From contig QKIO01000195.1 in NCBI GenBank assembly GCA_003251015.1, positions 1 to 38,625 of the forward strand: a stretch of DNA of 38,625 nucleotides, given 5' to 3'. This document shows, in pieces, positions 11,931-37,809 of this stretch. The notes beneath the pieces were generated by a model. That model made no database searches, was not told the DNA's origin, and worked only from the letters and a program-made list of their open reading frames with translations. The DNA is from Bacteroidales bacterium (GTDB lineage Bacteria > Bacteroidota > Bacteroidia > Bacteroidales > Marinilabiliaceae). Position 1 is the first letter of the stretch; each line of letters starts with the position of its first letter. Position numbers and translations under genes: made by a program.

Positions 11931-13862
11931 ATGAGAGTGTTAGTTATGTTTATGGTATTATTTGCTTTATTTTCTTGTAAAAAAGAGGATTCTAAGAGCA
12001 ATTTATCGCAGATCTTAAGTTTCTCTGTTAAAGAGATAGATGCTAAATTTGATAAGGATGCGAATAATAATTGGTACGCAAAAGTAGGGCCAAAGACGGA
12101 TGTAACGGCACTTACTGCAGTGTTTGAAGTATCTCCCTTATCTTACACCTTTATTGGTAACACTCTCCAAACTTCGGGGTTTACCATTAATGATTTCTCC
12201 AAACCGGTAACATATACCGTTAGAGCTGAAGATGGTTCTTCTACAAACCACACAGTGACTATTTATAAGCAGGCAGCTATTGCGGCTTTTAGTATTTTAG
12301 AATTAAAAGATGTTGAATTTAACATCACCGAAAACACAATGACGGCAACCGTTATAAATGGTACCGATTTAAAAGCATTAACGGCAGTGTTTGAAACCAC
12401 AAAGGGGTCTAAGCTGTATGTAAACAACGTTGAGCAAGTATCTAGCACAACAAAAAATGATTTCTCTGCACCTCTCACGTTTGAATTAAAAGAGGAGGGT
12501 GCCGAAACAGTTACCTACACAGTAACTATTACCGAAGCTCAAAACACTGCGCCTGTTGCCAATGCTGGCGAAGACAAAACATACTACGTTGGCGCAGGTG
12601 TTACAATAGTAAAGGCCAATCTTAATGCCAGTCTTTCTTCTGATAAGGAAGGCCCTCTTTCTACTTTTGAATGGAAAGATGGTGATGTGACCATTGCTAC
12701 CACTCAGGTTGCCAATGTAGATCTTAATTTAGGTTTACATACTATTACTCTAATTGTAACAGATGCTAAAGGATTAACCAGTTCTGATGAGCTTTTTGTC
12801 ATTGTAAAGAACGTTAGTGATTTTATTCCTGTGGATGCAGAGGCCAGTGAGGTAACTAAAAATCTTCTTAAGAATATTGGTAAGGTAGCTCTTAGCGACC
12901 AATTCATTTTTGGACAAGAGTTCCCACTTTCCTTTAAATTAAATGGTTTACGCTACGATTTAATCACGTCCGATTGTAAAGATGTAACAGGTAGCCATCC
13001 AGGTGTGTATGGAATAGATCCTCATTACATGCTTTATAAAGATGCTAAACAAAAACAAGCGCACATTGATGAAGCCAAAAAAGCGTATCAAGATGGGTCA
13101 GTTGTTACGTTTGATTTTCATCAGTATAGTAAAAACGATCGTAAAATTTACATGAAAGATATTACAACAGCACAAGATAAAAGTTTGATGTATGATGTGG
13201 TGAATAACAAAAATGGTGCGCGTGAGTGGTTTTATGGTGAGATGGATCAGGTTATCGGTATCATCAATAACGATTTAGGCTTTCCTGTGGTGTTTCGTTT
13301 GTTTCATGAAATGGATGGCGATTGGTTTTGGTGGGGGACTAAAGCAACAAACCACTCTAGCCAACTATATATTGAATTTTTCCGCCTTTCGGTAGATTAT
13401 ATCAAGTCAAAATCAAACTTAGTATTGTTTGCATGGTCGCCCAATGCTGCATTAAATACGGCTTATTATCCAGGTGATGCATATGTGGATGTGGTTGGAT
13501 TTGATATTTACGAACCAAGCAGAAACGATCTTAAAACAAAATTGATCAACTTGTCTCAATTTGCTTTAGAGCATAATAAAGTTGCCATCTTGGCTGAGAC
13601 TGGTTATCGTAACGACTTTGTAACTAGTGCCCCAGGGTTTTGGTCTGATGTGATCTTAGGTGCCATAAAAGATGGTGGTAATGAGGTGCGTATTGCTTGG
13701 GTGTTATCTTGGTTTAATGCGCCTTGGGATACTCAGCAGAAGAGTTTATACATACCAGACATCAACAGTACTCAAAAAGCAAAAGATAAATTTATTGAGT
13801 TCGAAAAAGATAATATGACGCTTTTTCATAAAGAAGTGAGCGCATTGGAAATGTATAAGTAA
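11931..13862 (+). CDS. GH26 endo-beta-1,4-mannanase, surface lipoprotein with Ig-like and PKD domains
   Basis: 643 residues. The lipobox LFSC is followed by KKEDS, which fits the K-(D/E)2 lipoprotein export signal known in Bacteroidota, so surface exposure is predicted. Two DUF5018-like beta-sandwich repeats (about 28-110 and 115-200) and a PKD domain (about 207-292, PVANAGEDK) precede the GH26 barrel (about 300-640). Catalytic residues are visible: E460 in FRLFHEMDGDWFWWG (acid/base) and E556 in AILAETGYRN (nucleophile). YPGDAYVDVVGFDIY is also classical GH26. It probably makes the first cuts in mannan at the cell surface. The next gene, 23 bases downstream, is a second GH26 without the export signal. 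RBS AGAAAGG lies before the start. Confidence 0.92.
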   Translation: MRVLVMFMVLFALFSCKKEDSKSNLSQILSFSVKEIDAKFDKDANNNWYAKVGPKTDVTALTAVFEVSPLSYTFIGNTLQTSGFTINDFSKPVTYTVRAEDGSSTNHTVTIYKQAAIAAFSILELKDVEFNITENTMTATVINGTDLKALTAVFETTKGSKLYVNNVEQVSSTTKNDFSAPLTFELKEEGAETVTYTVTITEAQNTAPVANAGEDKTYYVGAGVTIVKANLNASLSSDKEGPLSTFEWKDGDVTIATTQVANVDLNLGLHTITLIVTDAKGLTSSDELFVIVKNVSDFIPVDAEASEVTKNLLKNIGKVALSDQFIFGQEFPLSFKLNGLRYDLITSDCKDVTGSHPGVYGIDPHYMLYKDAKQKQAHIDEAKKAYQDGSVVTFDFHQYSKNDRKIYMKDITTAQDKSLMYDVVNNKNGAREWFYGEMDQVIGIINNDLGFPVVFRLFHEMDGDWFWWGTKATNHSSQLYIEFFRLSVDYIKSKSNLVLFAWSPNAALNTAYYPGDAYVDVVGFDIYEPSRNDLKTKLINLSQFALEHNKVAILAETGYRNDFVTSAPGFWSDVILGAIKDGGNEVRIAWVLSWFNAPWDTQQKSLYIPDINSTQKAKDKFIEFEKDNMTLFHKEVSALEMYK

Positions 13863-13885: not shown

Positions 13886-14992
13886 ATGAATCAAGTTATT
13901 AAAATAGCAATACTCACGGTATGGGTTTTTGTGATGCTCTTTGGATGTTCTCAAAAGCATTCAGATGGATCTCAATCAACAAAGAACGAGCTACTGCAAC
14001 GCTTAGAGTTGGCCAAAGGCAAAGGCTTGCTTTTTGGTCATCAAGACGACTTAGCCTACGGAATAGGTTGGAGTTACGTGGATGGTGAATCGGATGTGAA
14101 ACGTGTAGCTGGTGATTACCCCTCCTTGTTTGGATGGGAACTAGGAGGGGTTGAAAGTGGACATAGGGTCAATCTGGATAGTGTGCCATTTCAAACCATC
14201 AAAGACTTAGCTGTAAAAGTACACCTCGAAGGTGGCATAAATACCTTTAGCTGGCATCCGTTTTCGGCTATTGACGAAGCCAGTTCGTGGAGTGGCGATT
14301 CGGTAGTGGTTAAATATATTATCCCTGGTGGATCGTTTCACGCACAGTTTATTCAGCACCTCAATCGTTTGGCTGATTTCTTAAAACAACTAAAAACAGT
14401 TGATGGAAAAGCCATACCGTTTATTTTTAGGCCGTGGCACGAGATGGATGGCACTTGGTTTTGGTGGGGCTCAAAAACATCTAGCCCCGATGAACTCAAA
14501 GAGTTATTTAGGGTTACCGTGAATTACCTAAGACACGAAAAAGGGTTAACCAATATGGTGGTAGCTTATTCTCCCGATCGTTTTTTCTCCAATGAAGAAG
14601 AGTATTTAACCTGGTATCCGGGTGATGACGTGATTGATATTGTAGGGATGGATAATTATCACGACCTAAAATGTGATTCAGGAGTGAATGAGGTGATTAA
14701 AAAATTGCATGTGGTTATACAAGTGGCTAAAACGCACCAGAAACTAGCTGCTTTTACCGAAACAGGATGTAGTAATGTGTTTGATGCCGTGTGGTTTACT
14801 CAAAAATTAGGTCTTGTACTTAACGATTCATTAATCAATGAAGATGTGAGTTATGTGATGGTGTGGCGTAATGCGTCAACTAACCATTTCTTTTTTCCAT
14901 ACCCTGGCCATGCCGCCGAATCAGACGCAAAGGCATTTTTAGATCGAAGTGACGTGTTGTTGCTTAATGAGTTTGTAGAATTAGGAAAGTAA
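13886..14992 (+). CDS. GH26 beta-mannanase / mannobiohydrolase, probably periplasmic lipoprotein
   Basis: 368 residues: lipobox MLFGC, then SQKHSDGS, which lacks the acidic surface-export signal, so a periplasmic location is inferred. A single GH26 barrel follows. E186 in FRPWHEMDGTWFWWG is the acid/base and E292 in AAFTETGCSN the nucleophile; GHQDDLAYG near the N-terminus and YPGDDVIDIVGMDNYHD are family blocks. In other Bacteroidota, small GH26 enzymes of this type next to the epimerase/GH130 pair release mannobiose from oligosaccharides (B. fragilis ManA-type pathway). Here it lies 30 bases before the GH130 start, which fits that role. Exo versus endo action cannot be read from the sequence. 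Confidence 0.92.
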   Translation: MNQVIKIAILTVWVFVMLFGCSQKHSDGSQSTKNELLQRLELAKGKGLLFGHQDDLAYGIGWSYVDGESDVKRVAGDYPSLFGWELGGVESGHRVNLDSVPFQTIKDLAVKVHLEGGINTFSWHPFSAIDEASSWSGDSVVVKYIIPGGSFHAQFIQHLNRLADFLKQLKTVDGKAIPFIFRPWHEMDGTWFWWGSKTSSPDELKELFRVTVNYLRHEKGLTNMVVAYSPDRFFSNEEEYLTWYPGDDVIDIVGMDNYHDLKCDSGVNEVIKKLHVVIQVAKTHQKLAAFTETGCSNVFDAVWFTQKLGLVLNDSLINEDVSYVMVWRNASTNHFFFPYPGHAAESDAKAFLDRSDVLLLNEFVELGK

Positions 14993-15022
14993 AAATTATT
15001 GAACAGAAAATACATAAAGGAT

Positions 15023-16210
15023 ATGAGTTTATTTGACACACGTTTAGGTAAAATTAAAAAACAACATAACACGTTGTTATCGAAGAAGAATATAGCACTT
15101 TTTAGTGTGAATGGGGTGTATAATAGATACGAAAACCCAATTATCACTCGAGATCATGTGCCCTTACATTGGCGTTTTGATTTGAATAAAGAAACCAATC
15201 CGTTTTTGATGGAACGCATTGGCTTTAATGCTACGTTTAATGCGGGAGCGATCAAACTCAACGGAAAATATGTGTTGGTGGTGCGTGTTGAGGGTAACGA
15301 TCGTAAGTCGTTTTTTGCTGTGGCCGAAAGTGCCAATGGGATTGATAATTTCAAGTTTTGGGATCGTCCAATAACCTTGCCTCAAACAGACAAACCCGAC
15401 ACCAATGTGTATGATATGCGATTAACGCAACATGACGATGGTTATATTTATGGTGTGTTTTGTACCGAGCGTAAGGATTTAACGGCTCCAGATGGAGACA
15501 CCTCTAGAGCTGTAGCCGAAGCTGGTATTGCTCGTACCAAAGATTTAATTACTTGGGAGCGTTTACCAGATCTTATTTCAACTACTGGTCAGCAACGTAA
15601 TGTGGTACTGTTTCCGCATTTGATTGATGGGAAATATGCTTTTTATACACGTCCGCAAGATGGCTTTATCGATACAGGTAAAGGTGGTGGCGTAGGTTTT
15701 GGTTTATCTGAGACCATCGAAAATCCCGAAGTTAAAGAAGAGTTGATTGTTGATCCCAAAACTTATCACACCATTTTTGAGGTGAAAAATGGCTTAGGGC
15801 CAGCTCCCATCAAAACAAAACATGGCTGGTTACAATTGGCTCATGGTGTGCGTAACACCGCTGCTGGCTTGCGCTATACTCTTTATATGTTTATGACAGA
15901 TTTAGCAAAACCTTGGGTGGTAACACATAAACCACATGGTCATTTTATTGCGCCATTGTGCAGCGAACGTGTGGGTGATGTTTCTAACGTAGTGTTTTCT
16001 AACGGTTGGATAAAAGATGAGAATGGTGATGTGAAAATCTATTATGCATCATCTGATACACGTATGCACGTGGCTACATCTACAGTAGATCAGTTGCTTG
16101 ATTACTGCATGAATTCGCCACAAGATAAATTGCATTCGCATTTATCGGTGCAAACCATCAATAATTTGGTGGATGCCAATACCAATCACATGAGTCAATT
16201 GAACGATTAA
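15023..16210 (+). CDS. GH130 beta-1,4-mannosylglucose phosphorylase
   Basis: 395 residues from the ATG at 15023 (MSLFDTRL), which has AAGG just upstream and begins like other GH130_1 enzymes. A TTG at 14999 would add eight unlikely residues. With this start the conserved NVYDMRLTQ motif places its aspartate at residue 131, the position I recall for the general acid of the B. fragilis enzyme. Other blocks are [31 protein letters not shown] and [14 protein letters not shown]. The cytoplasmic enzyme phosphorolyses mannosyl-beta-1,4-glucose to alpha-mannose-1-phosphate and glucose. It works directly after the epimerase encoded next, and the pair forms the signature of the beta-mannan pathway. Confidence 0.94.
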
Positions 16211-16267: not shown

Positions 16268-17503
16268 ATGAATAACGTACTTGGCTCTATGACAGACGTA
16301 AAGGTAATTCGAAAATTAAAGGACTTAAAGCTCGAGATGACGACCGAGTTAGAGCGTTTATTAAAATTCTGGTCTACCGAAGCATTGGATGCCGAAAACG
16401 GAGGTTTTATTGGTCGCATCGATCATTTTGGAAACAAAGATGTGCTTGCTCCTAAAGGAGTGGTATTAAACACACGCATTCTTTGGTCTTTTTCATCGGC
16501 CTATCGTGCAACAGGTTTGGCTCAGTATAAAAAAATGGCTGATATGGCCTTTGATTATCTCATTAATTATTTTTGGGATAAAGAAGAGGGCGGTTTTGTA
16601 TGGGCCATCGATTATAATGCATCGCGTGTAAATACCCGAAAGCAAACCTATGCCCAAGGATTTGGAATATATGCCTTGTCAGAGTACAACAGAGCCACTG
16701 GAAATAGAGAGAGCTTGGAGTATGCCCGTCAATTATTTTACATTCTCGAGAATAAATTTAAAGATCTTGTAAATGGAGGTTATATTGAGTCTTTAGCAAA
16801 AGATTGGATGCCCTTAGAGGATATGCGCTTGAGTAAGAAAGATGCCAATGCGCCTAAATCCATGAATACGCATTTACACATTCTTGAGCCCTTTGCTAAT
16901 CTGTATCGTGTATGGCCTGATCGTCAGCTCAAAAAAAGTATTCATAACTTAATCTCCCTTTTCCAAAACAAAATAATTGATCCTAAAACGGGACATTTTA
17001 ACTTGTTTTTTGAGATGGATTGGTCGGTTCTTTCAACGGCTGTTTCGTTTGGTCACGATATTGAAGGCGCTTGGCTAATGCACGAAGCAGCTTTGGTTGT
17101 GGGCGATGCTTCCATTATTAGTCAGGTTCAACAAACAGCCATTAAATTGGTCGATATTACCCTTGCTGAAGGTTTAGATAAAGACGGATCTTTGTTTAAC
17201 GAACGAGATGGAGATCATTATGATACAGATAAACATTGGTGGCCTCAAGCCGAGGCAATGGTTGGTTTGATGGATGCGTATGAGATCAATCAGGATCCTC
17301 AATATTTGGAGTACTTAGAAAAAGTTTGGGTATTTATTAAATCAAATCTTATTGATCAGGCTAAAGGGGAATGGTATTGGAGTGTTGATAAAGAGGGTAA
17401 TCCTCATACTAGCGAAGATAAAGTGGGCTTTTGGAAATGCCCTTATCACAATAGCCGTGCCTTAATTGAGCTTGTTGAGCGAATTGAAAAATTATTAAAT
17501 TAA
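16268..17503 (+). CDS. cellobiose/mannobiose 2-epimerase (AGE superfamily)
   Basis: 411 residues, an (alpha/alpha)6 barrel with no signal peptide, so cytoplasmic. The catalytic set is complete and spaced as in characterised cellobiose 2-epimerases: GHDIEGAW (H263, E266, W269), HWWPQAEAM (W325, E329) and CPYHNSRA (H394). NGGFIGRIDHFG and KQTYAQGFGIYAL are further family blocks. It converts beta-1,4-mannobiose to mannosyl-glucose by inverting C2 of the reducing sugar, and so feeds GH130. It sits between GH130 and the symporter and is only 4 bases from the latter, so the two are probably translationally linked. The MTDVK methionine at residue 8 is an alternative start. Confidence 0.93.
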   Translation: MNNVLGSMTDVKVIRKLKDLKLEMTTELERLLKFWSTEALDAENGGFIGRIDHFGNKDVLAPKGVVLNTRILWSFSSAYRATGLAQYKKMADMAFDYLINYFWDKEEGGFVWAIDYNASRVNTRKQTYAQGFGIYALSEYNRATGNRESLEYARQLFYILENKFKDLVNGGYIESLAKDWMPLEDMRLSKKDANAPKSMNTHLHILEPFANLYRVWPDRQLKKSIHNLISLFQNKIIDPKTGHFNLFFEMDWSVLSTAVSFGHDIEGAWLMHEAALVVGDASIISQVQQTAIKLVDITLAEGLDKDGSLFNERDGDHYDTDKHWWPQAEAMVGLMDAYEINQDPQYLEYLEKVWVFIKSNLIDQAKGEWYWSVDKEGNPHTSEDKVGFWKCPYHNSRALIELVERIEKLLN

Positions 17504-21033: not shown

Positions 21034-22317
21034 ATGAAAAAATTATTGATTTTATTTTTCATGGCACTAACTGTAATAGCTTGCCAACAAGTATTTAAGA
21101 GCGAAAATGCTTTTGTTAAGGTAAAAGAGACTGCGTTTATGCTTGATGGTAAACCCTACACATTTGCGGGGGCTAATTATTGGCAAGGTATGAATTTGGG
21201 AGCTCCACAATCGGGCGATCAGTCTCGTTTGTTGCGTGAGTTAGATGAGTTACAATCCATGGGCGTTACTAATTTACGGGTGTTAGCTGCCAGTGAAGCC
21301 GATTCGGCCATGCGGTTTGCCGTTCTTCCTGCATTACAAACGGCACCAGGCGTTTACAACGAAGATATTTTTGTGGGTTTAGATTTTCTTTTGGCCGAGA
21401 TGCAAAAACGTAACATGAAAGCTGTAATGGTATTAGGTAACTTTTGGACGTGGAGTGGCGGTTTTCCTCAGTATTTGAAGTGGGCTGGAGCTGGCGAAAT
21501 TCCTTATCCTCAGGAAGAAGGTACTTCGTGGAGTGACTTTACAAATTATTCAAAAATGTTTTATACCAATGACAGTGCCCAACAAATGATGGAAAACCAC
21601 ATCAAAACAGTCATTTCTCGCAAAAATACGATCACCGGGACGTTATATAAGAATGATGTTACGATTATGTCGTGGCAATTGGCCAATGAGCCTAGAGCTT
21701 ATGATAACCTCATTCCTTTTAAGATGTGGATTGATAAAACAGCTGAGTTTATAAAGTCTTTAGATACTAATCATTTGGTATGTATTGGAACAGAGGGTAA
21801 TGCAAGTGGTATGGATGCGGGTCTTAATGTATTTTCGGATAATGATAACCAAGCCATTGATTACATTACCATGCATATTTGGATGCAAAACTGGGGTTGG
21901 TTTAAGCCCGGTGATGGCGATTCTATTTATGCTAAAGCCATTGAAAAGGTAGATAATTATTGGAACGATCATACTCTTGCGGCCACTCAACTCAATAAAC
22001 CTATTGTGCTGGAGGAGTTTGGTATAGCGCGTGATGGCTCTTCTTTTTCACCAGACACAAGTACAGTATCCCGAGATCTGTTTTTTAGTTATTTAAGCAA
22101 TAAGGTGGTTCACTCCATTCGTAACAATGGTGCAGTAAAAGGTTTTAATTTTTGGAGTTACTCGGGCGAGGGTCGCCCTATCAGACCAGGCGAGTTCTGG
22201 CGCCTTGGCGATGCGCTTCTTGGCGACCCTTCTCACGAGTTACAAGGCTGGTATGGTGTGTATAACACCGACTCTTCTACCATCAATATAATACAAAAGG
22301 TTAGTTCTCAACTCTAA
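21034..22317 (+). CDS. GH5 (subfamily 7-like) beta-mannanase lipoprotein
   Basis: 427 residues, lipobox VIAC followed by QQVFKSEN. The clan-A barrel starts with DGKPYTFAGANYWQGMNLG. E219 in WQLANEPR is the acid/base and E328 in IVLEEFGIARDG the nucleophile; LRVLAASEAD and NFWTWSGGFPQYLKW are typical of GH5_7 mannanases. It should hydrolyse beta-1,4-mannan or mannooligosaccharides. Without a clear acidic export signal it may face the periplasm. It is the last gene of the core operon, closed by a long hairpin terminator, and starts 15 bases after the sulfatase. Confidence 0.9.
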   Translation: MKKLLILFFMALTVIACQQVFKSENAFVKVKETAFMLDGKPYTFAGANYWQGMNLGAPQSGDQSRLLRELDELQSMGVTNLRVLAASEADSAMRFAVLPALQTAPGVYNEDIFVGLDFLLAEMQKRNMKAVMVLGNFWTWSGGFPQYLKWAGAGEIPYPQEEGTSWSDFTNYSKMFYTNDSAQQMMENHIKTVISRKNTITGTLYKNDVTIMSWQLANEPRAYDNLIPFKMWIDKTAEFIKSLDTNHLVCIGTEGNASGMDAGLNVFSDNDNQAIDYITMHIWMQNWGWFKPGDGDSIYAKAIEKVDNYWNDHTLAATQLNKPIVLEEFGIARDGSSFSPDTSTVSRDLFFSYLSNKVVHSIRNNGAVKGFNFWSYSGEGRPIRPGEFWRLGDALLGDPSHELQGWYGVYNTDSSTINIIQKVSSQL

Positions 22318-24036: not shown

Positions 24037-26721
24037 ATGAAATCAATTCTTTTTGTATTAATCCTAGGTCTAACTCTTTTTGTTACAGAGGCTAGATCAC
24101 AAGTTGTTAAGCCTGTTCCCGCAGGTATTGTTTATGCCGATGGTACTGCCTTTAAAGTAAGTGATGTCAATGGTGTAGCCACCCCTTTTTATTTTACAGG
24201 TACCAATAACTATTACCTAATGTATAAACCAACGACTATGGTGAATGATGTATTAGATGGCATGGTATCTATGGGGATGAAGGTGGTTCGTATGTGGTTT
24301 TTTATGGATGGGCCAGGAAGAGATGGTGTACCTTATTTACAAACGGCTGCTGGTGTTTATAATGAAGTGGCTTATGTTGAAATTGATAAAGTAGTGGCCG
24401 CAGCAGCCGAACGTGGTTTACGAATTATCCCAGCTTTTGTAAACTATTGGACAGACTTTGGTGGAATGGCGCAATATGCTACTTGGGCAGGTGCTCAAGC
24501 TACCGACTTTTTTACCAATGCCTCCATGAAACAGACCTATAAAAACTATGTTTCATCTTGGATAAATAGAACTAACACCGTAACTGGTGTCAAATATAAA
24601 GAAGACCCTACCATCTTCGCGTGGCAATTAACCAACGAAGCGCGATGCCTAAATAATAAATCGGCCGATGTGGTAGCTTGGGCTAATGAAATGAGTACGC
24701 ACATTCGTAGTCTTGATCCTCATCACATGATATGTATGGGTGATGAAGGTATTCTCAACTATACCAATGCCTATTGTGATTCAAAAGGTTTGTACAAAAA
24801 CTTTGCTTATTCAGGAGGTCAAGGTGACTGGGTGGGGTTATTAAACCTTAAAAATATTGATTTTGGAACCTTACATAGCTATTGGGTAGACCAATGGGCT
24901 ATTTATGATAAAACAACCAAACTGGTTGAAAATACAGCCGTTGGCGTTGAGTGGATTGATATTCATGTGGAAGAAGCAACTAAAATTGGTAAGCCTTGTA
25001 TTTTAGAAGAATACAACAAAGCTGATGTGGGACTCTGGTCCGATCTTAATGATACAAACCGATCTTATGTAATGGACGAATATCAAAAAGCCATTAGAGG
25101 CGAAGGCTATTCACCTTACTTAAAAGCGCAGCGCACGCAGGCTATGGCTGGCGATTTATCATGGATGCTTACGGGCCTTAATTACGTCGATTCTGTGCCA
25201 GCAGGATATACATTAGATGTAAACTCAACTACAGATGTCGGTAAGTATTGGTTATATCGTGTGTTATGGGGTAGTGATGGGCATTCGTATTCAATGTATG
25301 ACCCTAAAGCATCTGCAATTATCAAAGCTCATGCAAAAAAGATGTCAGATAAAAATGTTGTGGCTTTACCTACTTCCTTTACACAATTATCTCCAAGTAG
25401 TACCGCCACTAACGTAAGCATTAATGCTTTCTTAAACTGGCAAGTATCTTCAAATGCCACTTCGTATACTGTAGTTGTAGCTGATAATGCAGCTTTTAAT
25501 AATCCTATTATAACTAAAACAAGTGTTGTTCCTACCACTCTAAAAGTAACGGGATTATCATATTCAACTACTTATTTCTGGAAAGTAACGGCTATTAATA
25601 TTCTGGGGGCTAAGGTGGCATCTAATGCAGGTACTACGTTTACCACTCAAGCACCCCCTCCAGCTGTTGGTAGTTTTTCTTTAGTTTCTCCAGTTGGTAA
25701 AAATATAGCTAATAAAGCAACTAACTTTTCATGGACCGCAGGTGCCAATGCCGATTATTATCAGTTGGTAGTTTCAACTAAAGCTGATTTATCGACACCA
25801 ATTATTAATGTAACAGACATCAACAGCTTGTCATACACATCAACCGTTACCTTGTTGGAAGGAACAACCTATTATTACCAGGTAACAGGTGTTAACTCAT
25901 TGCATACTAAGGTTTCAGCAGTAGGCTCATTTGTGTCACAACTACCATCTGCAGCCATCGATATGTTTGAGTCTTACTCTTCATGTGCTACTGTAACGGC
26001 TGCATGGGTGCGTAATACTGGAGGTGCTGCACTTGAAGTATGTACCGAATCAGTTATTGGGGTAACTCAAGGTTCGAAGAGTATGAGAATGAGTTATAAC
26101 TTTTCTCAAGGTGGCTATTGTGGTGTGATGAAAGCATTAGGTGGACAGAGTTTCTTAGGGTATGAAGGAATTAATGTGGACATAACGGGTGATAATAGTG
26201 GCAATGACTTTACCATGCAAATCAGAGAAACAAGTGGTGAGTATTGGGAATTAACCCTGCCTATCAACTTCTCATCTACTACTACCGTTAAATATAATTT
26301 TAGTTCATTTAAAGTGAAGGATCATGGTGCGGTTAATCGTATTTTAGATTTAGCTAGCATTGCCGAAATATCAATCTACTTTGGTAAAAATGGAGGAACT
26401 AATACTGTATATGTGGATAATTTAAGATTAGCCCCGTATCCTTCTACTCCAACCACAGTTAATTCAATTGTTAATACAAACTCTAAATTAACGCTTTATC
26501 CTAATCCCGCTGGTAAAGAGGTAACTGTAATGTTATCAGATGATATGGATAAAAAAGGTTTGGTGCGCATCTATAGTATCAGTGGCTTTTTAGTCTATTC
26601 GCAAGTGTATGATTTGGGAATAACCAATGCGCTCACTATAGAACTAAGTAGCTTAGATTTTAGGAGTGGCATTTATTTATTAGACGTTAATGGGCAAGTA
26701 GCTCGTTTGGTAGTGAAATAA
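24037..26721 (+). CDS. multidomain GH5 beta-mannanase, GH5-FN3-FN3-CBM-CTD, T9SS substrate
   Basis: 894 residues. The signal peptide ends near ARSQ. The catalytic barrel (about 25-430) has E201 in WQLTNEARC (acid/base; the usual proline after NE is alanine) and E325 in CILEEYNKAD (nucleophile). FYFTGTNNYYLMY, VRMWFFMDGPGR and FVNYWTDFGGMAQY are GH5_7-like. Two fibronectin-III-like domains (about 443-535 and 540-632) are followed by a CBM11-like beta-sandwich (about 638-798, MFESY, AAWVRNTGGAAL, MQIRETSGEYWE, VYVDNLRL). A T9SS sorting domain closes it (about 815-894, LYPNPAGKEV). It is an extracellular endo-mannanase with a binding module. The same CBM-like module occurs in the next gene. Confidence 0.87.
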   Translation: MKSILFVLILGLTLFVTEARSQVVKPVPAGIVYADGTAFKVSDVNGVATPFYFTGTNNYYLMYKPTTMVNDVLDGMVSMGMKVVRMWFFMDGPGRDGVPYLQTAAGVYNEVAYVEIDKVVAAAAERGLRIIPAFVNYWTDFGGMAQYATWAGAQATDFFTNASMKQTYKNYVSSWINRTNTVTGVKYKEDPTIFAWQLTNEARCLNNKSADVVAWANEMSTHIRSLDPHHMICMGDEGILNYTNAYCDSKGLYKNFAYSGGQGDWVGLLNLKNIDFGTLHSYWVDQWAIYDKTTKLVENTAVGVEWIDIHVEEATKIGKPCILEEYNKADVGLWSDLNDTNRSYVMDEYQKAIRGEGYSPYLKAQRTQAMAGDLSWMLTGLNYVDSVPAGYTLDVNSTTDVGKYWLYRVLWGSDGHSYSMYDPKASAIIKAHAKKMSDKNVVALPTSFTQLSPSSTATNVSINAFLNWQVSSNATSYTVVVADNAAFNNPIITKTSVVPTTLKVTGLSYSTTYFWKVTAINILGAKVASNAGTTFTTQAPPPAVGSFSLVSPVGKNIANKATNFSWTAGANADYYQLVVSTKADLSTPIINVTDINSLSYTSTVTLLEGTTYYYQVTGVNSLHTKVSAVGSFVSQLPSAAIDMFESYSSCATVTAAWVRNTGGAALEVCTESVIGVTQGSKSMRMSYNFSQGGYCGVMKALGGQSFLGYEGINVDITGDNSGNDFTMQIRETSGEYWELTLPINFSSTTTVKYNFSSFKVKDHGAVNRILDLASIAEISIYFGKNGGTNTVYVDNLRLAPYPSTPTTVNSIVNTNSKLTLYPNPAGKEVTVMLSDDMDKKGLVRIYSISGFLVYSQVYDLGITNALTIELSSLDFRSGIYLLDVNGQVARLVVK

Positions 26722-26893: not shown

Positions 26894-29833
26894 ATGAAAA
26901 AAATAGTTTTAATAATGTGTTTGATTGCTGCCAGTTTCATGAAAATGACAGCCGTAGAACCATCTCCAACATCAAAAATTGGAATTTTATGGACCAGTTG
27001 GAGTGTGGATCATTTTCTATTACCAAATGTTTATATTGACAAGTTACAATCTTGGGGTATTGATTACATCTCTCTTAACCCTACTTATTTTATTAACACC
27101 TATGAAGATGGGATTACTGATACTTGGTTAGGATTACCTGTAACCCCAAGTGCAACGTTGCAGAAGGAGATTGTTAAAGAGTTGATTAAACGTAAATTCT
27201 ACATAAACTATCGCCCTCATGTGGACCCCATTAAGTTCGCCATGCCAATGGGTGATATTCGTACCAATTGGAATACCGTGCCTGGAGGTCAGGATTGGAG
27301 AGGCTTGTTTGACGGTCTTAATCCTACCAGCGATGTCATTGGTTACAGAACTCGTCTTATTCTACCTGGATTAAAAATGTTGGCTGAGGCCATTCGTGAA
27401 GCAGGGGCTCCTGTGACGCCAATTCGTTTCGATTTAGGTGCTGAGTTGATGAATTCTACCTTAAACTATACCCAGGAGTGGATTGATTTAAGAAATGAAG
27501 TACAGGGTCTTTTGAATACGACTTACAGTGATGTCAAACAATACATTGTCATAGGTCATAATTTTTGTCATCACTTCGAATATTTGTTAAGAGTTGAAGG
27601 TCATCCAGAGTATTTAACTCGTATTGTACCTGATCAACAAATTGATGAGTCTCTTTTGTTTGTTGACCGTAAAGGAGTGACGCAAGAAACGCGTATGAAA
27701 CTTGGTCGCTACATTGCGGGTTTAGACGAGATGAGTATCTCTCAATACATGCCTCTTGATATCTTTACAAAAGGCACTAAAACAACATCCGACGAAGTGT
27801 ATGATGCTCTACATTATCATGAAGATGTGTTTATTAAAGAAATATTAATAAAAGAATTAGGCATCGCTGAAAACGAATTACCTGTTTTACATATTGGTGA
27901 ATATGGCATGGGATGGAGAGGTTTAGCTGCGCCTAATGTGTGGGATAGGGCTAGTTGGATTAAGGCTGGTAGCAGCCACATGATATTGAACGATGCTCAA
28001 CAGAAAGAAGATGCAGCCATTGCAATTGAGGGTATTATTAAATATGTACAAGAGCAATCTCACACCAATTATCGCTCGTTTCTTCTGTGGTTTGGAGGTG
28101 CTCCTTATGATTTATTAAATATCAATGCGCACTCGGCTTGGTTCAATCCTGTAGCGGCTGATTTGTTAGAGCAATACTGGGCTACTCATGCTGGTGTACC
28201 GCCTATTACTAGTCCAGTTGTTAATATTGAGCTAATGGCAAATGCTGGTCTTGACATTGAAGTGGATGATGCAGATTTAAACAACTATGAAGATGTGACT
28301 TTAGATGCATCACTTAGTGTGGTGTCTGGTGCTCAAATTACAACCTATAAGTGGTTGAAAAATGGCTTTGAAATAGCTCAAGGCGAACGTCCAACAGTAC
28401 GTTTTAAATTAGGTACTCATGCCGTTGTGTTAGTGATTGAAGATTCTCGTGGCATTCAGAAAAAAGATCTTATCAACATTACCATTACTAGTAAAGCAAA
28501 TAAACCTCCAGTAGCTAATGCTGGTAAGGATTTAACTGCTATTGATTTTGATAACAATGGATTAGAGAGTTTTAACTTAGACGGCTCTTTAAGTTCTGAT
28601 GAGGATGGTACTATTGTTTCTTACACATGGAGTTTAAATGCGGCCGTTATTGCTACCACTTCCAAACCTACTTTAAAATTACCTATTGGGTCAAATAAAG
28701 TGGTGTTAACGGTTGTTGATAATTTAGGCGCTGAAGCAACTGATGAGTTGATCATTACTGTAAATGCCTTTGGCATTACTAGTTCTGTAATTGATAATTT
28801 TGAAACTTACGCTACAAATCTGGCCATGCAAACCGTATGGGTGAGAAATACTGGTGGTGGCAACATAACTACATCCATAAACACGGCTAAGGCAACTCAG
28901 GCTGCTTCTTGTATGAAAGTGGATTACACTTTCTCTGACTATGCTGGTGTTCAAAGCCAACAACAAACACTTAGCTGGACTAACTTTGATGGGATTGCGT
29001 TTGACTTAACAGCTGATAACTCGGGTAGAGACTTGCTTATTCAAATCAGAGAAGCTGGCGGGGAGTTTTGGGAAGCTAAAACAACCTTAACGGATACCAC
29101 AACCAAAGAGGTGTTTTTACCTTTTTCTTCTTTCAAAAAAGCGTCTTGGCAATCAGAAGGTAATGGAGTTCTTGATTTAATTTCTATTACCGAAGTGAGT
29201 ATTTATTTAGGAGGAACAGCAGGTTCTGGTACATTCTATATCGATAATTTAAGAGCTGTAATTAAACAAGATAACCAATCACCTATTGCTCAGGCTGGTA
29301 ATGATCAAACGGTTGGTTTGTTGCCTGGTCAATCGACTGCAAGTGTGCTTTTAGATGCAACTGGTAGTGTTGATCATGATGGTCAAATAAAAACATACAC
29401 ATGGAGTTTATTAGGTGGTGGTGATATTGCTACTGGCTCTAAGCCAATGGTATCGTTAGGTCTTGGTAAGCATATTGTTTACTTAACCGTTACGGATAAT
29501 AAAGATGCTGTACATACTGATTATGTAACCATTACAGTAACAGGAAATACACCCACTTCTGTATCTCCTGTGATTGTTTCAGAGGGTTCGTTTTATCCAA
29601 ATCCAGTACAAAAGGTGCTTTATATCAACCTTGGAGCAGAGCAGCTTGATCATGTTAACCTTAGTTTATATGGTATTGATGGTAATTTAGTGTATGACGT
29701 TTCTTATGCTAATAATGCATCTCAATTACTTAACATTCCTATAGAATCGCTACATATTAAAAATGGTTCGTATGTATGTGTAGTAACTACTGCATCAAAG
29801 ACGTTTCGAAAAGTAATTATTGTGAATAAATAG
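26894..29833 (+). CDS. large secreted clan GH-A hydrolase resembling GH113, with PKD and CBM-like domains, T9SS substrate
   Basis: 979 residues with a signal peptide. The N-terminal barrel (about 28-435) recalls GH113 mannanases: GILWTSWSVDHF start, INYRPHVDP (compare KPHVD in GH113), DWRGLF, RFDLGAELMNS with E184 as probable acid/base, MSISQYMPLD, and LHIGEYGMGWRG with E336 as probable nucleophile. The two glutamates are about 150 residues apart, clearly more than in the GH113 enzymes I know, so it may be a divergent or new family. Then come PKD (about 444-530), PKD (about 536-625), a CBM11-like module (about 631-790) shared with the preceding GH5 protein, PKD (about 795-885), and a T9SS domain (about 900-979). 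Mannan is inferred as substrate from the context. Family assignment is by eye. Confidence 0.65.
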   Translation: MKKIVLIMCLIAASFMKMTAVEPSPTSKIGILWTSWSVDHFLLPNVYIDKLQSWGIDYISLNPTYFINTYEDGITDTWLGLPVTPSATLQKEIVKELIKRKFYINYRPHVDPIKFAMPMGDIRTNWNTVPGGQDWRGLFDGLNPTSDVIGYRTRLILPGLKMLAEAIREAGAPVTPIRFDLGAELMNSTLNYTQEWIDLRNEVQGLLNTTYSDVKQYIVIGHNFCHHFEYLLRVEGHPEYLTRIVPDQQIDESLLFVDRKGVTQETRMKLGRYIAGLDEMSISQYMPLDIFTKGTKTTSDEVYDALHYHEDVFIKEILIKELGIAENELPVLHIGEYGMGWRGLAAPNVWDRASWIKAGSSHMILNDAQQKEDAAIAIEGIIKYVQEQSHTNYRSFLLWFGGAPYDLLNINAHSAWFNPVAADLLEQYWATHAGVPPITSPVVNIELMANAGLDIEVDDADLNNYEDVTLDASLSVVSGAQITTYKWLKNGFEIAQGERPTVRFKLGTHAVVLVIEDSRGIQKKDLINITITSKANKPPVANAGKDLTAIDFDNNGLESFNLDGSLSSDEDGTIVSYTWSLNAAVIATTSKPTLKLPIGSNKVVLTVVDNLGAEATDELIITVNAFGITSSVIDNFETYATNLAMQTVWVRNTGGGNITTSINTAKATQAASCMKVDYTFSDYAGVQSQQQTLSWTNFDGIAFDLTADNSGRDLLIQIREAGGEFWEAKTTLTDTTTKEVFLPFSSFKKASWQSEGNGVLDLISITEVSIYLGGTAGSGTFYIDNLRAVIKQDNQSPIAQAGNDQTVGLLPGQSTASVLLDATGSVDHDGQIKTYTWSLLGGGDIATGSKPMVSLGLGKHIVYLTVTDNKDAVHTDYVTITVTGNTPTSVSPVIVSEGSFYPNPVQKVLYINLGAEQLDHVNLSLYGIDGNLVYDVSYANNASQLLNIPIESLHIKNGSYVCVVTTASKTFRKVIIVNK

Positions 29834-32442: not shown

Positions 32443-33840
32443 ATGAAAATTACCTTTTTATCTTTATTCCTTTTAGTTAGTTGCTACAAACTTGTTTCAG
32501 CTCAAAAATTTGCACCTAATCCAGACAAAACCATTTTGTTGGTTGGGCAAACGTATAAAGCCGAGTACGAAAATTATAAAACAGAAACGGGTCTTACTCC
32601 AATAGGGTCGTCTCATTATGGTACTCTTTTTACAGGTACCATAGAACAAGGGGATGACAGTCCAGATGTATTATTTTTAGATTGGGTGCGCGGTAGCCAG
32701 TCTAACCCCTATGCTTTAGTGGCCATAAGTATTAAAGATAACCCATCAGCAGGTGGGTATGGTCAGATGGTAAATCCTACTGGAGCGAACTTTGATGCCA
32801 ATGCCATTTGGCAAAGTTTAATAGATATCTCTGCTGGTAATTGGGATACACAAATAGATGCCTATGCTAAAACAATGAAGGATAGACCTGATACTAAGTT
32901 TTATTTAAGAATTGGTTATGAGGTTAGTTTGTTCCTTTTTGCCTATCGCGATGAAGTGCGTTATAATGGTGATTGGTTGACAGAAAAAGCCATTGCAGGG
33001 ATCAATGTGTTTGATAAACCATCTGATTTTGCAGAATTGGATCCTCAGGCTTATATTAATGCCTACAACCACATAGCTAATAGAATTAGAAATGTAAATG
33101 GTGTGACAAATGTTGATTTTGTATATCATCCAGTGCGCGGAACTAACGACACGAAGTATTTGTACCCTGGTGCCACATTTGTAGATTGGGTGGCATTTTC
33201 TGTTTTTAACAACGATGTGTGCGTAGACGTCAATGGTATAAAGAATTGTGAAGGTAAGATGGTAGACGAAAACTTGCAAAATAGTATCGATTTTGCCAAA
33301 AGTAAAGGTCATCGAATTATGATTGCAGAATCATCTATTCAAACAGTTGATCCTAACTCAACGGTTACCGACGCTCAGTTTATTGATTATCTAAGTCGCT
33401 TAGATGCCTTAGTTAAAGCTGAAAATGTAGGCGTTTTAGCATATATCAATTCCAATTGGAATGCTCATGGTTGGGGGGCTGAATGGTGCGATTCTCGCAT
33501 ACATAAAAATGCAACAATATTAAATTATTACAAGAATACCTTTGGTGTAGGTACAAGATATGATGGTTCGGTACCTACCGCAATCAATGAAATGGTTGCA
33601 ACAGATGGTGTAACTATTGTAAGTACAACAGGAAAAAATACATATCGAATTATTTCAAATGGTTCTCAATATATTGATCGTGTGCAAGTTGTGAATATGA
33701 GTGGTGTTAGTGTGATGGAACAAAAAGCTTTGGGTCAAAATGAGATTTTATTTGACTTATCGCATTCTCCATCTGGCATTTACATTGTTCGTGTAGTCAT
33801 TGAAGGAAAAGTTGTTTCAAAGAAAATATTGGTGAACTAA
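32443..33840 (+). CDS. secreted GH26-like clan GH-A hydrolase, T9SS substrate
   Basis: 465 residues. The signal peptide ends near VSAQ. A barrel of about 350 residues begins with KTILLVGQTY and has FYLRIGYEVSLF (E160, probable acid/base), YPGATFVDWVAFSVF (compare YPGDxYVDVVGFDIY in GH26) and IMIAESSIQ (E296, probable nucleophile). The normal GH26 HEM/HEMDG acid/base block is replaced by YEV, so the substrate may not be mannan. From memory, GH26 beta-1,3-xylanases carry an LRIGYE-type motif and a GQD-like start, but I cannot verify this here. The C-terminal 80 residues are a T9SS sorting domain ending in KKILVN. It stands alone, with a hairpin terminator after it. Confidence 0.7.
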   Translation: MKITFLSLFLLVSCYKLVSAQKFAPNPDKTILLVGQTYKAEYENYKTETGLTPIGSSHYGTLFTGTIEQGDDSPDVLFLDWVRGSQSNPYALVAISIKDNPSAGGYGQMVNPTGANFDANAIWQSLIDISAGNWDTQIDAYAKTMKDRPDTKFYLRIGYEVSLFLFAYRDEVRYNGDWLTEKAIAGINVFDKPSDFAELDPQAYINAYNHIANRIRNVNGVTNVDFVYHPVRGTNDTKYLYPGATFVDWVAFSVFNNDVCVDVNGIKNCEGKMVDENLQNSIDFAKSKGHRIMIAESSIQTVDPNSTVTDAQFIDYLSRLDALVKAENVGVLAYINSNWNAHGWGAEWCDSRIHKNATILNYYKNTFGVGTRYDGSVPTAINEMVATDGVTIVSTTGKNTYRIISNGSQYIDRVQVVNMSGVSVMEQKALGQNEILFDLSHSPSGIYIVRVVIEGKVVSKKILVN

Positions 33841-34690: not shown

Positions 34691-34707
34691 GCTTGGGAGA
34701 GGGTGTT

Positions 34708-36417
34708 ATGGAGAAGTTGAAAAGTAAAAAGATGGGTATTGGCACTAAAGTAGGTATGGTGCTCGCAGTTTATTTGGGGGTGTCGATTACCCTAGCCGTT
34801 ACTGGCTGGCAAGTGGCTCAACGCTTTCTAATAAGTACCGACCAAATGGTGTCGTTAAATTATTACGAGAGTTTCTTGAATAGGGCGTTTGTAGATCAAT
34901 TACGTTTTTTTGTGTATAATTTAAATGAAAATCGCTTGAGTGTGAAGGATGATGTATTTGATTATCAGGTTTTGTTAGCCTATCATCAGAATAAAGAATT
35001 TAAACATATTTTCTCAGGGGATAATGGATTTGATGCGGCCAAGTCGACTAGTTTGACCAAAGCCTATGAACAAACTGCTAATACGTCGTTAGACGAAGTG
35101 ACTGAAGCCACCATTATCCGACAACAAAATATTGAAATAGCCGATCGTGTGATGCAGATTGGTTCGGCCAGAGAGAAGCAATTGCTTCAACAAGCCATCA
35201 TGGATGAATATCATTTTCATCAATCAGAACGGGACGATAAAAAACAAGACTTGTTTGAAACGCTCAATCTACTCTTAAATGGTCATTTGTCGGATGAAAT
35301 GCGACAGTTGATACTTAGTTATAAACACAATGTTGAAGATTTAATAGAGTTGCAAGAGTTTATCGTTCAGCAGTTTAATGCCTCGTTAACTAGGTGGGAG
35401 CAAGCTAGAGAATATACCTATCAGTTCAATGGTGTTATCTTTCAGCGATTAAAGGTGTTACGTAGTCAAGTGCATATGATGTATATCATTATCATTATTT
35501 TTGTACTGCTCTTGGGGGCCTTATTTACCTACCGCTTATCTAAAAATATATCCAGAGGAGCGCATGAGAATCTTGAAGCTTTGAAGGCTGTCGCTGATGG
35601 TGAGCTTGGGGTGAAGATGGAAGCTAAAGTCATGCTTCGAAAGGATGAGTTTGGTAATTTAGCACGTACGTTAAGTGAAACAGTGGAACGTCTCAAGACA
35701 ACCTTGGTTAAAATTGGAATGTCTTCGGGTAATGTGTCTGGCTTGGCAGGGCGTTTGGCAAACACTTCCGACGAAATGTCTAATGGTGCCAATATACAAG
35801 CAGCTTCTTTAGAGGAAGTATCTTCATGGATGCAGGAAATGGTCGCTAATATTGAGCGTAATACGGCGTTTGCTCAGAGTGCAAAAGTCATTGCCGACTC
35901 ACTCGAAAAACACCTCGATAAGGTTAAATCTTCATCAGACAATAGTCTTAAGGCCATTAACGAAATTACCAGTAAGGTAACTGTAATTAACGACATTGCT
36001 TTTCAAACTAATATCTTGTCGCTAAATGCGGCTGTAGAGGCTGCTAGAGCGGGCGCTGCAGGTCGTGGTTTTGGTGTGGTGGCTGCTGAAGTTCGGAAAT
36101 TAGCCGAACGCAGTCGTGCCGCTTCCAACGAGATACAACAAATTTCAGAAAATAGTATCAATACCTCTAACGAGGCTTCTGCTGTAATTAATGAGATTAT
36201 ACCTTCTATTAACGAGGCTGTTAAGTTAATTCAGGAAATTGCAGCAGGTAGCATGGAGCAACGTGCTGGCGCCGAGCAGATTAATTCGGCTATTCAGGAG
36301 TTAAACTCGGTTACTCAGATGAACGCTTCTAGCTCAAGTGAGTTATCCACCCAATCGGTGAACCTAAGTGGTATGGCTGATGAATTGGTTAAAGATATTG
36401 CGTATTTTAAAGTCTGA
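34708..36417 (+). CDS. methyl-accepting chemotaxis protein
   Basis: 569 residues from the ATG at 34708, which has GAGAGG upstream; a TTG 15 bases earlier is in frame but less likely. TM1 spans about 14-36 and TM2 about 257-277 ([20 protein letters not shown]). The periplasmic part of about 220 residues is helical, like a four-helix-bundle sensor. A HAMP domain (about 278-332) leads to the cytoplasmic signalling coiled coil. The hairpin tip (about 424-470) has the conserved [20 protein letters not shown] and [18 protein letters not shown]. It should control a CheA kinase, but no che genes are in the window. Chemoreceptors are uncommon in Bacteroidota, and this one follows a mannan locus directly. 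Confidence 0.92.
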
Positions 36418-36513
36418 AATTTATTAATCCCACACATAAACACTCATGATGTTTAATCGGGTATAGGCAGTTTGTATACAATTGCTTTTGCCCACTTTAT
36501 TTATATCTATATT

Positions 36514-37809
36514 ATGAATTTTATCTCTAAATTAATTCTATCACTTGTGCTAATGTCTAGCCTCATGTCTTGTTTTCCAAATTATAAAAAAGGAGAAGCT
36601 ACAGTTGACTCTCACGAAAAGGATATTACTCATTTATTGGCTTTCTTCAACGATAATGCCTTTCAGCCAGAGTTTGCAACTTATTATTCGGAAATTGATG
36701 ATAAAGGACAGCCAATATCACAAAAGGTATATACCGTTGCGTTAAGCAGATTGATATACGGCCTTTCTTATTCATCTAGTATTGACACAAGCTATTTAGT
36801 AAAAGCTGAATTAGCCCTAAGTTTCCTCTTAAAAAATTTAGTGGCTTATGATAGCATAGGTGTCTATTTCAAATCTTATATAGACATGCAATCGGGAGAT
36901 GTGGATAATTCTACACAACTAGACATTTGGCAACAAGCCTATGGATTATGTGGCTTAACCGAATTTTACAGAAATCATCCAAGTGCTGAGTTACTTTCTT
37001 TTATTCATCAGGCTCACGATGCGTTTATCTCTCGGTTTCATGACCCTATGCATGGTGGTTTTTATGGGAATTCCAATAAAAATACTGGCCAAATATCAGG
37101 CAGTAAGTCGTTACAAGCCTTACTATATCCAATAACTGCGTATATGGAGAATTTATGGTTGGCTGATAGTTTACACAAGGCTAAATATGAACTTTATTTG
37201 AAGGAAAATATAAACCTTGCTTATAAAAATGGCTGGGATGATAAGCGCGGATGGGTAACTATTAAATTTGATGACTCATGGACGAGTTGTAAGCATAAAT
37301 CGGTTGAAAACATCTGTTTTACTGTGAATCCAGGACATAATTTTCAGTTTGCTTCGGTTTTATTGCGCACTAATAATTGGATGTTTTTGACTTCACAAGA
37401 ACAATTCAATTATCATAAACTTGGGCTTGATGTTTTAAAACGAACACTTACTAAACCAATATATCCTGCAAACGATTTGTCGTTGGGCTTTTATAGCGAA
37501 GTTAATCCTTTAACCAATGAGGTGTTGGATTTTAGAAAAACGTGGTGGCAGCATTGTGAAGCACTTATCGCACTTTCTTTGGCTGATGGGAAATTTGAAA
37601 AGGAATTGGTCATACTTGAAAATTACTATTTCTCATCATTCCCAGACACTCAAAACGGAGGGGAGTACTTCTATTTAGATAAAGCTAATATCCCTCAGAC
37701 TACTGAATTAAAGGGTAGCATTGGTAAGTCTGCATACCATACGGTTGAAATGATTCGTTATCTAACGGGTAGAAATCAGTTTTTTGGGTCAATTAAGAAC
37801 GAGAAATAA
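36514..37809 (+). CDS. AGE-superfamily (epimerase-like) lipoprotein
   Basis: 431 residues from the ATG at 36514 (MNFISKLILSL), which gives a clean lipoprotein signal (lipobox LMSC). The upstream in-frame ATG at 36472 would add MYTIAFAHFIYIY and spoil it. The mature part is an (alpha/alpha)6 barrel like N-acylglucosamine 2-epimerases: YTVALSRLIYGLSY, HDPMHGGFYGNSN, NPGHNFQFASVLL (at the place of GHDIEWAW), TWWQHCEALIAL (at the place of WWPQAEAM), and SAYHTVEMIRYL (at the place of PYHNSRA). Histidines of the epimerase site seem kept, but the glutamate after GH is replaced. Characterised AGE enzymes are cytoplasmic, so a lipid-anchored member acting outside the cytoplasm is unusual. It may be an epimerase, a lyase-like enzyme or a binding protein. 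Confidence 0.7.
   Translation: MNFISKLILSLVLMSSLMSCFPNYKKGEATVDSHEKDITHLLAFFNDNAFQPEFATYYSEIDDKGQPISQKVYTVALSRLIYGLSYSSSIDTSYLVKAELALSFLLKNLVAYDSIGVYFKSYIDMQSGDVDNSTQLDIWQQAYGLCGLTEFYRNHPSAELLSFIHQAHDAFISRFHDPMHGGFYGNSNKNTGQISGSKSLQALLYPITAYMENLWLADSLHKAKYELYLKENINLAYKNGWDDKRGWVTIKFDDSWTSCKHKSVENICFTVNPGHNFQFASVLLRTNNWMFLTSQEQFNYHKLGLDVLKRTLTKPIYPANDLSLGFYSEVNPLTNEVLDFRKTWWQHCEALIALSLADGKFEKELVILENYYFSSFPDTQNGGEYFYLDKANIPQTTELKGSIGKSAYHTVEMIRYLTGRNQFFGSIKNEK

Follow-up and report, generated by a model that had tools for sequence, protein, structure and literature searches.

We analysed a 38,625-nucleotide stretch of a Bacteroidales genome (contig QKIO01000195.1), hereafter called the window, and describe here one gene on its forward strand that encodes a secreted multidomain protein of 979 residues. 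Going by comparison with Pfam, NCBIfam and the PDB, the N-terminal barrel domain of this protein probably represents an undescribed family of mannan-degrading enzymes. We consider it likely that this domain is a retaining hydrolase of glycoside hydrolase (GH) clan GH-A that acts on extracellular β-1,4-mannan or a close variant of it, and that it forms a family of its own with GH113 as the nearest structural neighbor. The barrel domain is followed by two PKD domains, a CBM11 module, a third PKD domain and a T9SS tail (Table 1). Two of the PKD stretches pass Pfam. Since residues 443–534 align with both of them (32/92 and 34/91 identical positions in pairwise alignments), the protein contains three PKD domains. 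Together with the matches to PF03425 and PF18962, this bears out the three PKD domains, the CBM11-like module and the T9SS domain proposed in a first-pass annotation made from the sequence alone.

The barrel domain is not recognized by the libraries that we searched. Residues 1–440 gave no match in a Pfam scan of the whole protein, and the isolated barrel found nothing in Pfam at E ≤ 10, no match in NCBIfam (June 2026) and no credible match among PDB sequences. A profile of nine barrel sequences likewise found no credible PDB sequence (best E 0.13, an unrelated protein). The GH113 model PF22612 is present in the Pfam library, and none of the nine members matched it at E ≤ 10; Pfam scans that included these members also gave no match of the barrel to PF00150 (GH5) or PF02156 (GH26). 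Pfam matches to Sec8_C and CBM64, in one member each (E 0.042 and 0.12), were weak and taken as noise, as were PDB sequence matches to twinfilin, a MAGE domain and other proteins (E ≥ 0.04). Recently created CAZy families may be without Pfam and PDB entries, so that the barrel could already have a family number absent from these libraries. We regard this as quite unlikely, given that searches of Pfam, NCBIfam and PDB sequences brought up nothing credible, that the relative from Flammeovirga kamogawensis is annotated only as a "PKD domain-containing protein", and that, going by search titles, no description of such a family was found in the open-access literature.

An AlphaFold2 model of the barrel computed from eight sequences (predicted local distance difference test (pLDDT) 78.3; predicted template modeling score (pTM) 0.85) shows an eight-stranded (β/α)8 barrel, the fold of clan GH-A. 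The model places E184 (model residue 164) directly after the fourth barrel strand (157–163) and E336 (model residue 316) among the last residues of the seventh strand (311–317), so that the two predicted catalytic glutamates lie at the ends of β4 and β7, as this clan requires. Both are invariant in 13 alignment rows (11 distinct sequences) that range from Flammeovirga to a Spirochaete and share 115 invariant positions in all. With this model as query, the first 15 rows returned by Foldseek are all GH113 mannanases. GH113 mannanases also occupy ranks 1–11 in VIA (Z 21.9–22.8 over 279–285 residues at 13–15% identity), followed by a laminarinase (Z 18.6) and then by β-glucuronidases and GH5 enzymes at about 18; matches outside GH5, GH26 and GH113 we presume to belong to clan GH-A as well. 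A second model, built for the Spirochaete domain (44% identical to the window barrel; pLDDT 69.8, pTM 0.78), again has GH113 at ranks 1–11 in VIA (Z 18.9–20.0; next 17.7). By both models, the closest known fold is therefore predicted to be that of GH113.

To place the barrel family relative to known mannanases we used control domains from genomes of the same phylum as the window: 20 GH113 domains (20 of 45 matches, found in 41 of 198 genomes), 17 GH26 domains (17 of 20 loci returned, leaving out L052, which is the window's own, and the weak L054 and L055) and 20 GH5 domains (all of the 20 loci returned). Each profile–profile comparison was accompanied by 20 column shuffles. The barrel family scored 50.3 against GH113 (E 4.4e-6 for one comparison; shuffle maximum 25.5), 27.1 against GH5 (E 0.011), slightly above its shuffle maximum of 21.1, and 15.5 against GH26 (E 0.4), below its shuffle maximum of 23.8. 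For comparison, GH113 scored 52.6 against GH5 and 38.0 against GH26, and GH26 scored 34.7 against GH5. The score of 50.3 is close to the 52.6 between GH113 and GH5, so the barrel family appears to be roughly as distant from GH113 as the latter is from GH5, with the reservation that the barrel alignment is narrow. GH113 subgroups as narrow as the barrel family scored 244–590 among themselves, but only 20–30 against the barrel family; the same subgroups gave 22–46 with GH5 and 21–36 with GH26. A hidden Markov model of the 20 GH113 sequences reached a best E of 0.34 among the members and 55 for the window protein (at Z=1e6); the best values for the GH26 and GH5 models were 1.3e3 and 9.2e3.

The barrel family also differs from GH113 in dimensions. 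The two glutamates are 152 residues apart in the window protein and 151–155 apart across the nine members first aligned, whereas this distance is 92–107 (median 93.5) in the 20 GH113 sequences. Judging from alignment gaps, the largest share of the extra spacing falls between β5 and β6, in a segment that starts with the motif HNFCHHxE. This invariant motif contains many possible metal ligands, which would allow a metal site, and the enlarged segment overlaps it. The domain comprises 411–423 residues, as opposed to 309–327 in the solved GH113 chains (AaManA 3civ/4cd6-8; 5ylh/5yli; BaMan113A 7dv7). Finally, barrel family proteins have multiple domains and are often fused to mannanases, while in the vast majority of GH113 proteins that domain stands alone, according to Couturier et al. 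(PMC9032380). In model match, within-family profile similarity and glutamate spacing (about 80–107 residues in GH113 once PcMan113 is counted), the barrel family does not behave as a member of GH113.

What the two families do share is a clan GH-A barrel with glutamates after β4 and at β7, and a set of motifs: KPH or RPH, GTEL or GAEL, and YFPL or YMPL. The profile alignment pairs GAEL of the barrel family with GTEL of GH113 and YMPL with YFPL. E336 is paired with the GH113 nucleophile only in an extended, low-confidence alignment and in the model. The acid/base motif in the 20 GH113 sequences is GTE in 16 cases and GAE, GVE, GLE or GNE in one case each. The absence of an asparagine before the acid/base therefore fits GH113, where a motif without it is the rule. 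GH5 enzymes retain this asparagine, and in GH26 the acid/base comes after a histidine. The account of PcMan113 (PMC10992819) gives E152/E232 as the catalytic pair and N98, W104, R105, D183, Y204, W282, D283 and Y300 as conserved substrate residues. Y285 (SQYMP) of the window protein aligns with the tyrosine of the GH113 YFP motif, which we take to be Y204 of PcMan113; W135-R136 of the DWRG motif would be a plausible, unaligned counterpart of W104-R105, and the remaining residues are without confident alignment. Among the tested families GH113 is the nearest, and the barrel family probably works alike.

These data confirm much of the first-pass annotation. The motifs RPHVDP, DWRGL, LGAELMN (with E184) and IGEYGMGWRG (with E336) are all present where it had placed them, and its estimates of a glutamate spacing of about 150 residues and of a domain longer than in GH113 were both accurate. 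The GH113-like character that it had assigned agrees with the best fold matches and with the pooled profile score, and a comparison of the model with known structures put GH113 first in both Foldseek and VIA. Its suggestion of a new family is supported by the lack of PF22612 matches in the nine members and by a profile distance of between-family size. The same observations count against the somewhat unlikely alternative that the barrel is a very divergent clade of GH113 and would be classified with it as soon as intermediate sequences come to light. Such a clade would account for the first rank of GH113 in fold in both models, for a profile score far better than those of GH5 and GH26, and for the GH113 counterparts of the RPH, GAEL, YMPL and E-Y-G motifs; moreover, the narrow barrel alignment (effective number of sequences 1.9) depresses all scores. 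However, a GH113 clade would have to be reconciled with E values of 0.34 and 55 against the GH113 model, with scores of 20–30 against subgroups that reach 244–590 with each other, and with a glutamate spacing outside the GH113 range.

The assignment to mannan is based on the company that the barrel keeps. Among the nine members examined, six carry a GH5 mannanase in the same chain, and the other three sit among mannan genes. F. kamogawensis encodes a single 1977-residue chain in which a GH5 mannanase (like 8gf3/3pz9) and CBM11 precede the barrel domain, with GH26 and GH130 close by. Successive parts of this chain match two adjacent genes of the window: the window's own GH5 mannanase, directly upstream of the barrel gene, aligns with the N-terminal part of the fusion over 818 columns at 43% identity. 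Three catalytic barrels occur in the chain of F. aprica, namely an 8gf3/3pz9-like GH5, the barrel domain and a third barrel like 5y6t, 3vup and 2c0h. This chain also contains CBM11, F5/8 and CBM35 modules and seven PKD stretches. Three further Flammeovirga combine the barrel domain with a GH5 barrel of the 5y6t/3vup/2c0h kind, which brings the number with this pairing to four. In the Spirochaete, the chain consists of a GH5 mannanase (3jug, E 5.2e-108; 2whl), a CBM11-like module, CBM3, PKD and the barrel domain. From their PDB matches we take these three fused GH5 types to be subfamilies GH5_7, GH5_10 and GH5_8. Fused chains are 1282–2855 residues long, compared to 979 for the window protein. 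One of the two remaining barrel genes (L006) adjoins GH36, on a contig that ends in a GH5 fragment; the other (L007) adjoins GH26 and GH130. GH5 mannanases thus share clan and mannan context with the barrel and are physically joined to it in six relatives, but the barrel itself has no GH5 family match. GH26 mannanases, likewise of clan GH-A, are present at the window, L002 and L007 loci.

Since all nine members are fused to or near mannan-type enzymes (mannanases, mannosidase-like, GH130 or α-galactosidase-like proteins), the barrel is probably tied to mannan; the best fold matches are mannanases as well. It is unlikely that the domain is a clan GH-A hydrolase that cuts another linkage, such as that of β-glucan, xylan or decorated algal mannan, although this idea would agree with the window's sulfatase gene, its two agarase-like genes and the glucanases among the fold matches. 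A barrel that serves binding rather than catalysis is very improbable. The six fused members do hold another catalytic domain in the same chain, but in our judgement invariance of both glutamates and of 113 other positions would be unusual for a pseudoenzyme.

Several observations weigh against a mannan-specific family next to GH113. The CBM11-like modules in six of nine members and the CBM3 of the Spirochaete would equally fit glucan or glucomannan. Clan GH-A barrels look alike, with β-glucuronidases, a laminarinase and GH5 enzymes at Z of about 18, and in the weaker Spirochaete model the lead of GH113 is just 1.2–2.3 Z. The AlphaFold2 model has a mean pLDDT of 64 over residues 311–320, at the end of β7, and values under 50 for residues 98–117, by the DWRG motif, and 319–329, after E336 (model numbering). 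Support from sequence for GH113 comes from one pooled profile; the subgroup scores of 20–30 come close to those of the shuffles, which were run for the pooled profile, and the GH5 profile also lies slightly above its shuffles. A GH113-like fold is moreover no guarantee of mannanase activity, because none of seven soluble GH113 enzymes of the Bacteroidetes clade was active on mannans according to Table 1 of PMC9032380.

For the favored reading, a mannan-degrading family of its own near GH113, we propose the following mechanism. The substrate would be β-1,4-mannan or a gluco-, galacto- or algal mannan, cut outside the cell. The nucleophile would be E336, located where strand 7 ends and attacking the anomeric carbon, while E184 after strand 4 would serve as acid/base, first protonating the leaving oxygen and then activating water; such a double displacement would retain the anomeric configuration. 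We infer catalysis, substrate, retention and endo or exo mode alike. The three PKD domains may act as spacers, CBM11 may keep the enzyme on the polysaccharide of the wall, and export would depend on the T9SS tail. One end of the cleft may owe its shape to the enlarged loop that follows strand 5. As a further guess, the barrel probably adds what endo-mannanases lack, be it exo or processive action or attack on a tougher mannan, since in relatives the same chain already contains a complete endo-mannanase. More tentatively still, and leaning against it ourselves, we entertain the possibility that the barrel is the founding member of a new clan GH-A family in CAZy, sister to GH113, that was repeatedly joined to three types of GH5 endo-mannanase and supplies exo, processive or crystalline-mannan activity.

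PMC9032380 lists GH5, GH26, GH113 and GH134 as β-mannanase families, and one title claims a β-mannanase in GH1 (PMC7362650). If our assignment is correct, the barrel would add a further mannanase family. Its signature is invariant, and the domain is small enough to be expressed on its own and hence directly testable. It would also allow better annotation of proteins now named just "PKD domain-containing protein", and raise the question of how a mannanase benefits when another mannan barrel, unrelated to its own, is part of one polypeptide with it.

The barrel domain is rare in the sampled genomes. A tblastn search of plasmids returned one record, that of F. kamogawensis (62.9% identity over 98% of the domain); a Neorhizobium match at E=2 is not counted as a relative. 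A scan of genome contigs revealed at least seven loci: four from Flammeovirga, two from Paludibacteraceae (roe-deer rumen and horse faeces) and one from a Spirochaetales metagenome-assembled genome (43–44% identity). This number is a lower bound because the scan used just two short peptide patterns. Single-protein searches hit 1 of 395 genomes in the window's phylum and 1 of 393 in its order, each time the window genome itself. In whole-genome samples from the phylum and order of the Spirochaete, 1 of 296 and 1 of 185 genomes carried the domain, again that genome itself. The order of Flammeovirga gave 6 of 186 genomes, some of them already known, and the family of the L006 genome gave 2 of 150, namely this genome and a fragment (106 positions, E 3.1e-5) with five internal stop codons that we discounted as chance or decay. 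Among 107 candidate stretches from viral contigs none was confirmed as a relative.

Table 1. Features of the barrel protein, its gene neighborhood and the three-barrel relative (window coordinates unless a locus is given)
Feature	Position	Strand	Basis
Whole gene, 979 aa, ATG start, secreted multidomain protein	26894..29833	+	open reading frame translation
N-terminal leader, probable signal peptide	26894..26953	+	by-eye judgement of sequence
Predicted catalytic (β/α)8 barrel domain, residues 21–440	26954..28213	+	predicted structure; nothing credible in Pfam, NCBIfam or PDB sequences
E184, predicted general acid/base after β4, GAEL motif	27443..27445	+	invariance, alignment with GH113 GTEL Glu, model
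HNFCHHxE motif, residues 222–229, after β5	27557-27580	+	seven invariant positions in alignment
Enlarged β5 to β6 segment, residues about 225–278	27566..27727	+	alignment gaps, model
E336, predicted nucleophile at end of β7, IGEYG motif	27899..27901	+	invariance, model, extended low-confidence alignment
PKD domain 1, residues 443–534	28220..28495	+	alignment with other two PKD domains
PKD domain 2, residues 535–626	28496..28771	+	Pfam and PKD alignment
CBM11 module, residues 631–787	28784..29254	+	PF03425 E 2.8e-12
PKD domain 3, residues 794–882	29273..29539	+	Pfam and PKD alignment
T9SS C-terminal sorting domain, residues 901–976	29594..29821	+	PF18962 E 1e-8; TIGR04183
T9SS proteins (two), beta-agarase C-like	387-1526 and 1875-2981	+	6hy3, E 5.4e-72 and 4.8e-94
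GH26 mannanase with PKD	11931..13862	+	
GH26	13886..14992	+	
GH130, mannooligosaccharide phosphorylase-like	14999..16210	+	
AGE-type epimerase genes (two)	16268-17503 and 36472-37809	+	
GH5 exo-mannosidase-like	21034..22317	+	1uuq E 2.6e-96; 4lyp exo-β-1,4-mannosidase
GH5 mannanase, fn3-like, CBM11, T9SS	24037..26721	+	best solved relatives 8gf3, 3pz9
T9SS protein, third partial GH26 match	32443-33840	+	60 residues, E 1.6e-6
F. aprica chain, 2855 aa, three catalytic barrels	L004 351-8915		

The window provides the mannan locus in which the first-pass annotation had placed the gene, presumably serving growth on plant or algal mannan. Besides the GH26, GH130 and GH5 enzymes listed in Table 1, it encodes SusC- and SusD-type proteins, an MFS sugar transporter, a ROK kinase and mannose-6-phosphate isomerase (ManA), and a TIG-domain protein stands where such loci usually encode a surface glycan-binding protein. 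The first of the two epimerase genes adjoins GH130. An epimerase beside GH130 is the arrangement expected for the mannobiose epimerase-phosphorylase route. The T9SS protein with the partial GH26 match may represent a divergent enzyme of the GH26 type. Upstream of the mannan locus, the two agarase-like T9SS proteins also match porphyranases; Pfam shows no enzyme domain in either, and by these matches they are putative red-algal galactan enzymes. Together with the sulfatase gene at 19249, they hint at the red-algal cell wall as food. A gene for a methyl-accepting chemotaxis protein (34693-36417, forward strand) lies near the mannan locus.

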